Positions 3,283 through 23,269 of a DNA stretch of 64,000 bases are shown one piece after another. Both the position numbers and the translations under genes were made by a program. The notes beneath the pieces were generated by a model. It worked only from the letters and a program-made list of their open reading frames with translations, was not told where the DNA came from and did not search any database. The DNA comes from Escallonia rubra. Taxonomy: Eukaryota; Streptophyta; Magnoliopsida; Escalloniales; Escalloniaceae. The DNA lies in contig JAVXUO010001014.1 of the NCBI GenBank assembly GCA_033065855.1, forward strand, positions 186,001-250,000, given 5' to 3'. Each line of letters begins with the position of its first letter. The first letter of the stretch is position 1.

Positions 3283-6200
3283 ATGGTGAGTAAACTCCAA
3301 TCTTTGCTCTTTAACATAAGCACGACCAACTTCACCAAAGCCCGAAAGAGATGGCGCTTCGCTTATACCGCAATTTACTGCTCTAGGGTCATTCTCTCTC
3401 TCGCCAGAGAAGTTGTATCCCACAAAAGAAATTTTCAGCACCTCTCAGAAATATTAGTCGAGCCTTCTCATACAGTTCTCAATATCGATTTGGCATCATC
3501 AACTTCCGTGACTGCACCTGCTTCCCATTCACCCGAAACAGAAAATGTTCAGGGCTCTGGCTTCCCCGGCATTGACCAAATGAAACTCACAGAGATGGTG
3601 AAGAAAAAAAGCCTGGAAGATCTTTGCGCGTTTGGCGGTGTTGAGGGCTTGCTGAATGCTCTTGAAACTGATGCTGAAAATGGCGTCCATGGCAGTGATC
3701 AAAACGTCAGCCAGCGACGCAACCTGTTTGGCTCGAACACCTACCAGAAGCCACCCCCGAAAGGGCTCATCTTTTTTATCCTTGAGGCGTTCAAGGACAC
3801 CACAATTCTCATCCTCATGGCCTGTGCTGCTCTTTCCCTTGGTTTTGGAATTAAAGAGCATGGGTTGCAAGAAGGATGGTACGAGGGCGGTAGCATATTC
3901 TTGGCCGTCTTTCTGGTCATTGCTGTATCTGCAGCTAGTAACTTCAGACAGGAGAGACAATTCGACAAGTTGTCAAAAATAAGTAACAACATTAAAATTG
4001 ATGCTATGAGAGACGGGAGGCGGCAAAAGATCTCCATCTTTGACATAGTAGTTGGAGATGTTGTCTTTCTGACAATTGGAGATCAAATTCCTGCAGATGG
4101 GGTGTTCTTGGACGGGCATTCTTTGCAAGTGGACGAGTCAAGCATGACGGGAGAGAGTGACCATGTAGAAGTTGACTCCCTCCATAACCCTTTTCTCTTT
4201 TCTGGTTCCAAGGTGGCAGATGGGTATGCTCGGATGCTTGTGCTATCGGTGGGAATGAACACTGCATGGGGGGAAATGATGAGCTCGATCACACGCGATT
4301 CCAAAGAACAAACACCATTGCAAGCCCGTCTCGACAAACTGACCTCATCTATTGGAAAGGTAGGCCTTGCTGTTGCTTTTCTAGTACTTACAGTCATGTT
4401 AATTCGATATTTTACGGGAAACACGGAAGATGAGTACGGAAATCAGGAGTATTTTGGCAGCAAAACAAGTACAACCGATGTATTCAACTCCGTTATACGT
4501 ATTTTTTCTGCTGCTGTTACTATTGTGGTGGTGGCGATTCCTGAAGGTCTGCCATTGGCTGTCACACTCACTCTTGCATACTCCATGAAGAGAATGATGG
4601 CTGATCAGGCAATGGTCAGGAAGCTATCTGCTTGTGAGACGATGGGCTCAGCAACGGTTATATGCACCGACAAAACAGGCACGTTGACAATGAATCAAAT
4701 GAAAGTAACCAAGTTTTGGCTTGGCCAAGAAGACATGGGAGAACTGTGTTCCGGTGTAATTGCTCCAGAGATCCTTGAATTGCTGCACCAAGGAGTCGGT
4801 GTAAACACTACAGGTAGCATACACAAATCAGTTTCTGGATCTCTACCTGAGTTTTCTGGAAGTCCAACTGAGAAAGCGATTCTCTCTTGGTCTGTCCAGG
4901 AATTGGGTATGGATATGGAGAAATTGAAGCAAAACTCCACTATTCTTCATGTTGAAACGTTCAACTCGGAGAAGAAACGGAGCGGGGTATCAATGAGGAA
5001 GAGAGCTGATAGCACCATCCATGTGCACTGGAAAGGAGCTGCTGAGATGGTACTAGGAATGTGTTCAAGTTACTATCAATGTAATGGAAGTTTACAATCC
5101 ATTAATGAAGATAAAAGGATGCAACTTGAGAAGATAATCCAGGGAATGGCCGGAAGTAGCCTTCGTTGCATTGCATTTGCTCATAAGCAGATTCCAGAAG
5201 GAGAAATTCAACAAGATGAAGATGGAAAACCCCAGAAGCAGCTTAAAGAGGATGGGCTGACGTTGCTAGGCATTGTTGGTCTCAAGGATCCATGTAGACC
5301 AGGAGCAAAGAAAGCCATCCAAGTTTGCAGAGATGCAGGAGTGGACATTAAGATGATTACTGGAGACAATGTGTTCACAGCCAAAGCTATAGCCACAGAA
5401 TGCGGAATACTTGGACCTGGTCACGAAGTAAAGGATGGAGAAGTAGTAGAAGGTGCGGAGTTCCGGAACTACACGCATGAAGAGAGAATGAAAAAGGTCA
5501 GTGAGATCCGTGTAATGGCGCGATCCTCGCCATTTGACAAACTTCTGATGGTGCAATGCTTGAAACAGCAAGGTCATGTGGTTGCTGTCACTGGCGACGG
5601 AACGAACGACGCACCGGCCTTGAAAGAAGCCGATATAGGACTTTCTATGGGAATTCAAGGCACTGAGGTGGCCAAGGAGAGCTCAGACATTGTCATCTTG
5701 GATGATGATTTTGCTTCTGTGGCCACGGTTGTAAGATGGGGGCGATGTGTTTATAACAATATCCAGAAATTCATTCAATTTCAACTCACTGTGAATGTTG
5801 CAGCTCTTGTGATCAATTTCATTGCAGCGGTTTCTGCTGGTGACGTTCCCCTAACAACGGTCCAACTGTTGTGGGTCAACCTCATCATGGACACGTTGGG
5901 AGCTCTGGCACTTGCTACAGAGCTGCCCACAGATGAGCTGATGCACAGGCCGCCTGTGGGTCGAGTTGAACCCCTCATAACAAACATCATGTGGAGAAAC
6001 CTTCTGGCACAAGCTCTATACCAGATAGCCGTCCTCTTAACCTTACAGTTCAAGGGTAGGTCAATCCTTAACGTGAATGAGAGGGTAAAGAATACTCTTA
6101 TCTTCAACATATTTGTCCTCTGTCAAGTTTTCAATGAATTTAATGCAAGGAAGCTGGAGAAGAAGAATGTATTCGAAGGTCTTCACAAGAATCGTTTGTT

Positions 6201-21749: not shown

Positions 21750-23269
21750 TTACCAGAAGTCGCCACAAGAACAGACTCCACTACAAAAATGATGGAATCT
21801 CTTGGCATCCCTCACGATAATTTCTCGTTCAAAGAACTTTGAAACTAGCTTGCTGTAAGTATGGCAATCATCACAAACTCGAAGATTCTTAGTGATTCTG
21901 ATTGGGATTCCCTTAGGGGTTTTAAGCAGACCATATGCCATTGCCAACCTTTCGCTGTGCCCGTAAAGCATCTTGACTTTCTCTTTCTCGTCTACATTGT
22001 GCAGAACATGCTTGGTGTCAGCCACATACCCGCCTTGCGTTTCCAATCTCTCAGTAATCTGAGCTAGTTTTTGGTAAATTTCACCAGATTCTGGATGAGA
22101 CCTGTCCCTTGCAATGAAAGTATGAACCTTATCCATAATCTCAATCCAACTACATGCTGGGTCTTTCTTCAAACCTTTCACTTTCATATTCCTTCTCACT
22201 ACGTCCACGTCTTCCCATCTGCCTGTTGCAGCATACACATTAGATACAAGTACATAATTTCCCGGATTCGCCGGATCCAATTCTAGAAGTTTCATTGCTG
22301 CAAAATCCCCAAGTTCTTTGTTAGAGTGGATTCGGCAAGCACCAAGGAGAGCACACCAGACAGCAGATGTGGGCTGCATCTGCATGCTTTTCACAAACTG
22401 AAATGCTTCGTCCAAGTAATTTGCACGACCAAGCAGATCAACGAGACAAGCATAGTGTTGTGGCCATGGCTCCAAGTTATATTCATTTTGCATCTTATCA
22501 AAGTATTTTTTGCCTTCATCAACCAGAGCCGAATGGCTACAAGCATAAAGAAGTGCCAAGAAGCTTATAATAATCGAAAAACCGCATCATCTTTTTCCCT
22601 TCCTTTCAAATATACATAATGGCTCCTTCACATGCACTTTGCATCCCATATGACATTCATAACATGCTATACTTCCAAACTAAATCTTGTCAACCGACAC
22701 CATGTATTGAACCCAAGCGAAAGATCTGAATTCTCCACACATGCATAATACCTACAAGAGAGCAACAAGAGAACCCGGATTGCTATCCCATTCCTAATTA
22801 AGTGCCCTGAATCTCTCTCCATTTAACAAGCACAGATCATGCAGCCATGCAGACAATATTCTTTCAGCACTAATAGATCAAACTCAATGTCTGCTTCTTC
22901 CATTGCACTGAAAATGCAAAGAGCCTTGTACGCAAGTTCATCATATGCAGCAGCAGATTTCAAAAAATGGGCATGGACTTGTTGGCCTTGTGATAAAGCG
23001 TTTCTGCTGGCACAAAGCTCTAGAAGTGATGAATAGGCTTCATTTACACAGCTCTGAGGTGAGTTTTGCTGGCTGAGTTTTTCACTCAGAAATATAAAAC
23101 TTTCTTTGAAGTTATCTTGGTGAATTCCTTTAAGTTGAGCGACTTTGATGGGCTTTTGAGAGAATCTGGAGAATTTGGGAGGTGGGTTTTTCCTGGCTTC
23201 CTCAAATGTGGGATGGGGTGGTGAGGATGATGTGGAATTCAAGAGAGAGTATTGGATTGACGTAGCCAT
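21750..23269 (-). pseudogene. OTP86: OTP86-like PPR-DYW gene, internally deleted
   Basis: The family consists of organelle RNA-editing factors; Arabidopsis OTP86 (At3g63370) is needed for chloroplast rps14 editing. The 5' piece (23269 down to 22823) starts at an ATG with a Ser/Pro-rich transit-peptide-like start. It runs to VHAHFLKSAAAYD, then jumps to a later PPR (LAYKALCIFSAMEEADIEFD), and stops soon after. About 250 AT-rich bases follow with no PPR homology. The 3' piece (about 22580 to 21750) then resumes at FLALLYACSHS and continues intact through the E/E+ region (SWIEIMDKVHTFIARD) and a DYW deaminase with HSERLA and CDDCH zinc motifs, ending SCGDFW. Relative to the roughly 950-residue parent, more than 500 residues of PPR tract are missing. 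The spacer could conceivably be spliced, but the large PPR loss makes normal function unlikely. A functional copy would have to be elsewhere. Confidence 0.85.

Follow-up and report, generated by a model that had tools for sequence, protein, structure and literature searches.

In Escallonia rubra, a 64,000-nucleotide stretch of contig JAVXUO010001014.1 (positions 186,001 to 250,000, forward strand; assembly GCA_033065855.1) carries an ACA12/13-like Ca2+-ATPase, two genes for the microRNA MIR167 and what looks like the wreck of OTP86, a pentatricopeptide repeat (PPR) gene. We call this whole stretch the window, the contig that carries it C2121, and the contigs that carry a related neighborhood elsewhere in the 566-Mb assembly C1406 and C1407. 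The window is very probably one of two paralogous chromosome blocks, both of which have held MIR167 beside an ACA12/13-like Ca2+-ATPase since before the blocks split. The genome itself displays which genes each block holds and in what order, the direction of MIR167—transcribed towards the ATPase (ACA) on each—and a two-way split among the MIR167 precursors. The window would be a MIR167B-type block, running from a VTE3-like gene through the ACA, a type 1 and then a type 2 MIR167 to OTP86; C1406/C1407 would be a MIR167A-type block, running from DUF3700 through DMC1, a type 1 MIR167 and ATP sulfurylase to an ACA array that includes a second VTE3-like sequence. The block duplication could, depending on the species, be the core-eudicot triplication. 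The features of the window block are as follows.

3283..6432, plus strand: ACA12/13-like (type IIB, intronless) Ca2+-ATPase, a single open reading frame (ORF) of 1,049 amino acids
14410..14519, minus strand: MIR167 copy 1, type 1 precursor; mature miR167 at 14499-14479, miRNA* at about 14449-14430 (by eye)
19115..19246, minus strand: MIR167 copy 2, type 2 precursor; mature miR167 at 19228-19208, miRNA* at about 19156-19134 (by eye)
21753..22586, minus strand: putative OTP86 C-terminal remnant; last part of the PPR tract followed by E, E+ and DYW; open for 278 codons; Pfam E_motif, Eplus_motif and DYW_deaminase
22590..22825, minus strand: putative OTP86 middle remnant, frame-broken; three-frame reading, stops in every frame
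22826..23269, minus strand: putative OTP86 N-terminal remnant; ATG at 23269, 148 codons, then a stop
C2121:143060-143713, 46 kb to the left of the window ATPase: VTE3/APG1-like methyltransferase, with methyltransferase Pfam families

The order ACA, MIR167, MIR167, OTP86 and the identities of its members are those proposed in an earlier note on this DNA, with the amendment that the PPR gene is a broken remnant and not a whole gene. The ATPase scores 988.9 bits against TIGR01517 (cut-off 507.05), which places it among the type IIB (PMCA-type) pumps; it retains all five of the P-type motifs sought, and its closest solved relative is Arabidopsis ACA8. The tentative assignment to ACA12/13 draws on the uninterrupted frame of 1,049 codons, intronlessness being a trait that we take to mark ACA12/13, and on the position of the nearest paralogues: the four that are near full length, 72-73% identical to the window protein, all lie on C1406/C1407.

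Both MIR167 copies contain an exact miR167 20-mer on the minus strand (14480-14499 and 19209-19228), where 0.01 such matches would be expected and none of 100 shuffles yielded two. Each folds into a stable hairpin with the mature sequence on its 5' arm, opposite a paired star, and in both cases the hairpin is more stable than 200 of 200 shuffles (z-scores: copy 1, -6.2 and -5.6; copy 2, -4.2 and -5.1). The copies are separated by 4.7 kb, face the same way, specify the same mature sequence and have in common a 25-nt repeat, identical at 24 of 25 positions. Neither passes the Rfam gathering score (RF00640, 100 bits): copy 1 reaches 62.5 bits antisense and 46.6 sense over 14421-14510, and copy 2 gives no match at E values up to 10. 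We attach no weight to this shortfall because the printed RF00640 consensus carries miR167 in reverse complement, possibly a sign that the model was built on the wrong strand. MIR167 acts on ARF6 and ARF8, and hence on flower and ovule development, and the window genes would be expected to act in this ordinary way, their processed miR167 silencing ARF6/ARF8. Across the assembly there are only three exact 20-mers, two in the window and one on C1406, and an exact 18-mer recovers the same three; one-mismatch 18-mers occur at 11 further places in four forms (6, 3, 1 and 1 places), perhaps as repeats.

The third exact locus anchors the second block, where family scans of C1406:615-725 kb covered 10 and then 115 ORFs.

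C1406 647.2 kb: DUF3700 gene, from the ORF family scan
C1406 649.9-651.2 kb: DMC1, exons tested; the NCBIfam DMC1 model beats RAD51 on 4/4 exons
C1406:675123, plus strand: MIR167, the only other exact locus; exact 20-mer, type 1 precursor
C1406 723.2-724.4 kb: ATP sulfurylase, exons tested
C1406:728786-895246 and C1407:7887-144270: ACA tandem array, at least 15 ACA-like C-terminal halves

The ACA nearest to this MIR167 is 54 kb away, and the four closest to the window ATPase are at least 191 kb away. The array looks unusually large for this pump family; some of its genes occupy a single frame, some are split at about residue 475, and some pieces contain stops. Searched against the genome, the VTE3-like protein of C2121 finds four matches, of which two are strong: itself and C1407:83431-84021, 74% identical and in the middle of the ACA array. 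A VTE3/APG1-like gene on the ACA side, as in the Arabidopsis MIR167B block, is thus present in the window block. In Arabidopsis, APG1 is At3g63410 (PMC3123201), near ACA12 by number.

Since a second block with A-type flanks exists in the same genome, the ACA-MIR167 linkage predates the block duplication and, if C1406 and C1407 adjoin, VTE3, ACA and MIR167 stand together on both blocks and were therefore together before these split. The linkage had been proposed to be older than the duplication for all three of the ATPase, MIR167 and the PPR gene; this stands for ACA and MIR167, while for OTP86, seen on one block only, it is not supported. A PPR gene at C1406:712.4-714.4 kb was considered as an A-block partner of OTP86 and rejected, with an identity of only 46-49%.

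OTP86, At3g63370, is the Arabidopsis plastid editing factor for rps14-80 (PMC7231544) and consists of 20 PPR repeats plus E1, E2 and DYW (PMC7611903). The whole OTP86 span in the window amounts to at most about 505 codons, which leaves no room for 20 repeats; PPR matches are weak and confined to the C-terminal piece, with none in the N-terminal or middle piece by Pfam, and a Pfam scan of 22670-22822 in the middle returned no family. The DYW piece is open in a different frame from the 148-codon N-terminal piece. Even so reduced, its kinship can be read in both directions: among solved structures the window PPR-DYW sequence matches a synthetic PPR-DYW protein best and, of natural proteins, At3g63370 (PDB 7o4e), while the DYW domain of At3g63370, searched against the genome, ranks the window remnant first (70% identity, 216.7 bits) ahead of the next at 58% and 177.5 bits among the 150 matches listed. 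The remnant is thus no closer kin of another family member, the finding that the earlier note had named as fatal to its proposal. It looks like an OTP86 orthologue in ruins.

An alternative is that the break is an artefact of assembly and that the plant has an intact gene, as a local misassembly could imitate such damage; the edited base of rps14, kept as C in 4/4 assembly matches as described below, is what a working OTP86 would lead one to expect. Yet the remnant shows frame breaks and a stop besides missing sequence, and neither the N-terminus nor the C-terminus query found a second OTP86 piece among the best candidates, which are all that our genome protein searches score and which bound this result. 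For the C-terminus query the next best match is 54% identical among 140 matches (139 of 473 candidates scored), for the At3g63370 DYW query it is the 58% match among 150 (150 of 258 scored), and the sole match of the N-terminus query is itself (34 of 34 scored). We therefore regard an artefact as unlikely, and the ruined orthologue as the better account. A tRNA-Glu(UUC) gene lies at 23366-23437, about 100 bases from the broken OTP86 start.

The precursors carry the second strand of the argument. Copy 1 is 84% identical to the C1406 copy across 109 nt, and the alignment of their parts downstream of the mature 21-mer, with 61 of 83 columns identical, outscores 300 of 300 shuffles. Copy 2 aligns with either no better than shuffles do. 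It had been held that sequence alone cannot sort MIR167 loci, but outside the mature 21-mer the precursors do sort them here. Precursor trees of MIR167 have already been published (PMC4602222), and printed star sequences extend the two types to other plants. By eye, the star of copy 2 shows a single difference in 23 positions from castor rco-miR167a* (PMC3722108) and likewise from date palm pda-miR167b-3p, which rests on one read (PMC4633500); the other star type is found in castor b, c and d, that of d being identical to the star of the C1406 copy across 20 positions (PMC3722108). The types look old because the type 2 star is common to a monocot, date palm, and a eudicot, castor; and since copy 1 is near the C1406 copy while copy 2 is near neither, the tandem pair appears older than the block duplication. 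On these alignments the simplest history would be that the pair preceded the duplication and that the A block then lost type 2, of which short-word blastn found no remnant in C1406:615-735 kb.

The pair might instead be younger than the block duplication, having arisen by local duplication within the window block alone. The closeness, common orientation and shared mature sequence of copies 1 and 2 would suit such an origin, as would the single-type precursor content of C1406:615-735 kb and the published finding that group-B loci of poplar and grape are tandem and group-A loci are not (PMC3072343). Copy 1 is nevertheless far nearer to the C1406 copy than to copy 2, with which it has little in common beyond the mature part; and the star type of copy 2, printed for date palm from one read and for castor, is apparently old (PMC4633500; PMC3722108). 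A local duplication later than the blocks is for these reasons distinctly unlikely, and we continue with a pair that preceded the blocks.

Such a pair offers a lead on Arabidopsis. Set against provisional Arabidopsis precursor sequences, copy 2 aligns with MIR167b (z-score 13.4) and copy 1 with MIR167a (z-score 6.4); MIR167a against the C1406 copy, however, gives 3.6, no better than against MIR167b (3.8), which weakens the lead, and every other pairing that involves copy 2 or MIR167b gives 1.6 or less. Arabidopsis MIR167A and MIR167B may accordingly stem from different members of the tandem pair. Taken together, the proposed history would begin with both MIR167 types already in tandem, in an ancestral flowering plant, beside ACA and VTE3 and perhaps OTP86. 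This neighborhood would then have been duplicated, the A block subsequently dropping type 2 and either losing OTP86 or never having had it, and Arabidopsis, after reciprocal loss, would have kept type 1 as its MIR167A and type 2 as its MIR167B; in the present lineage OTP86 would later have died by deletion and frame breaks, and its plastid editing site would have persisted. We give this history as a whole about an even chance of being right.

That final step concerns codon 27 of rps14. A pattern for the site with the edited base left open, allowing up to three mismatches, occurs at four places in the assembly, and all four have C; a T, which would explain the loss of OTP86, was sought and is absent from 4/4 matches. 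One of the matching contigs, C201 (111,839 bases), which we call plastid-type from its complete rps14 ORF alone, has TCA at codon 27. Another of the four, a 183-base rps14 piece on C1375 (L045:210-392), is identical to the C201 copy within otherwise different DNA, and looks like a plastid-to-nucleus transfer. An OTP86 without its PPR tract should not recognize rps14, and C80 would therefore be either unedited or edited by another factor. Judging from these sequences, rps14 C80 seems to have outlived its factor as an orphaned site. Loss would be tolerable because Arabidopsis otp86 mutants are reportedly normal-looking. Takeover by another factor is conceivable because other PPR proteins have been proposed for rps14-80 in soybean (PMC7231544). 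For the factor RARE1, the editing site is thought to have been lost before the factor (PMC4727281). Loss of the factor with retention of the site would reverse that proposed site-first order, a reading that, jointly with that of the ancestral tandem pair, we hold to be evenly poised.

The surviving E/E+/DYW piece could, by analogy, have been kept as a short PPR-less deaminase acting in trans, much as Arabidopsis DYW1 acts in trans with CRR4. Its 278 codons are free of stops, an openness matched in 0 of 2000 shuffles; its first Met falls at residue 32, its HSE and CxxCH...CxC motifs are intact, and 94 of 135 residues are identical to the DYW domain of Arabidopsis OTP86. Recent decay accounts for the open frame equally well, though, and the remnants upstream are frame-broken, such that a retained deaminase strikes us as very improbable next to a decaying OTP86.

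Several observations weigh against the two-block reading as a whole. The join between C1406 and C1407 is inferred only, from an ACA array that reaches the end of one contig and the start of the other. The name VTE3/APG1 for the C2121 methyltransferase is one that we presume from resemblance and general methyltransferase families; its C1407 match holds one internal stop, and one of the blocks has VTE3 and ACA on a common strand, whereas in the other they are on opposite strands. With one DMC1 exon as query, phmmer put human RAD51 above DMC1 (76 versus 67 bits). An EDR1-like kinase, which we do not know as an Arabidopsis neighbor, intervenes between DMC1 and MIR167 on C1406, and the gene beyond OTP86 in the window is a BEACH/WD40 gene that, to our knowledge, is no neighbor of OTP86 in Arabidopsis. 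Beyond OTP86 no matching anchor was found, with C2121:250-280 kb and window positions 43-64 kb lying outside the family scans. Finally, the searches cover this one plant genome, and the Arabidopsis order is taken from locus numbers, some of them published and those of DMC1, APS1, DUF3700 and MIR167B presumed. The linkage with ACA could in principle be a coincidence between large multicopy families, given 48 ACA-like pieces in the assembly and PPR-DYW matches that number at least 140 with the window C-terminus as query and at least 150 with the At3g63370 DYW domain, but its likelihood is negligible: near-full-length ACAs at least 72% identical occur at two places only, C2121 and C1406/C1407 (on C2078 there are just two short pieces, 37 and 51 residues long), and a simple uniform estimate for both MIR167 places lying within 200 kb of near-full-length ACAs is about 2e-6, with VTE3, DMC1 and ATP sulfurylase left uncounted.

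Beyond the linked genes, the window and its surroundings hold few further features. The gene that follows OTP86 is

about 27143-37077, minus strand: BEACH/WD40 (neurobeachin-like) gene, several exons; NBCH_WD40 and PH_BEACH above cut-off, DUF4704 just below

Between VTE3 and ACA, a region for which 10 ORFs were scanned across C2121:136-186 kb, a proline-rich ORF (L018:5374-6249) has a C-terminal Prolamin_like domain. GC-rich overlapping ORFs with repeated motifs occupy both strands of window 59400-60714 and are probably a repeat and not genes. On the other block, two of the 115 ORFs scanned in C1406:615-725 kb match the emp24/gp25L (p24) family; a p24 gene presumably lies near MIR167A in Arabidopsis as well.

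These observations matter in several respects. Mature MIR167 sequences are too alike to reveal family history, and the precursor arms are shown here to carry usable signal. The genome furnishes a reference for both blocks, each with its named anchors—VTE3, ACA12/13 and OTP86 on one side; DMC1, ATP sulfurylase and DUF3700 on the other. Should Arabidopsis MIR167A and MIR167B prove to be what is left of an older tandem pair, any comparison made on the assumption that they are simple duplicates would have to be repeated. The persistence of an editing site after its factor has died, moreover, sets up a natural test: is editing of rps14 C80 needed, or has it been taken over by another PPR protein? 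In a limited literature search we did not find these anchors named for this genome, a dating of the tandem pair against the blocks, or the ruin of OTP86 with a retained rps14 C80; nor did that search return At3g63375 or any joint naming of two of the six neighboring loci around At3g63370-63440.

Comparison with Arabidopsis, which the earlier note had raised as a parallel, bears the parallel out: gene content and order agree with the known MIR167B side and MIR167A side. We take the A side to run DUF3700 (At3g22850), DMC1 (At3g22880), MIR167A (At3g22886), APS1 (At3g22890), ACA13 (At3g22910), and the locus number of MIR167B to be At3g63375. Among these, published assignments cover ACA12 as At3g63380 and ACA13 as At3g22910 (PMC3355532) and MIR167A as At3g22886 (PMC7084539), and ath-miR167a and b map to the plus strand of chromosome 3 at 8108072 and 23406168 (PMC3072343). 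The Arabidopsis MIR167B block (OTP86, MIR167B, ACA12, VTE3/APG1) thus has the same genes as the window and, by locus number, the same order; ath-miR167b reads towards ACA12 by locus numbers, as both window copies read towards ACA. The window differs in having two MIR167 copies and a broken OTP86, which, although its DYW domain and that of Arabidopsis OTP86 are best matches both ways in the same neighborhood, has lost most of its PPR tract to deletion. Against the A block, whose order is partly presumed, C1406 likewise has DMC1, MIR167, ATP sulfurylase and ACA in sequence; C1406/C1407 adds at least 15 tandem ACA-like C-terminal halves and the VTE3-like sequence.

Use of the neighborhood as a route to MIR167 orthology, also advanced in the earlier note, is not new: Cai et al. 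(2011; MicroSyn, PMC3072343) sorted the MIR167 loci of Arabidopsis, poplar and grape by microsynteny into groups A-D, group B being tandem. With the precursor trees mentioned above (PMC4602222), the method, the grouping and the use of precursors are thus already known. Cai et al. report conserved neighbors for Arabidopsis miR167a and b and were unable to assign rice to any of A to C; in the main text there is no mention of PPR, pentatricopeptide or ATPase (PMC3072343). Among the miR167 matches of the present assembly we recognized no locus fitting groups C or D. Group B is tandem in poplar (twice) and in grape, and group A is not; the window fits B, and C1406 fits A. Whereas miR167a and b appear there as products of one duplication (R2; PMC3072343), the precursor types described here suggest that they are different members of an older pair.

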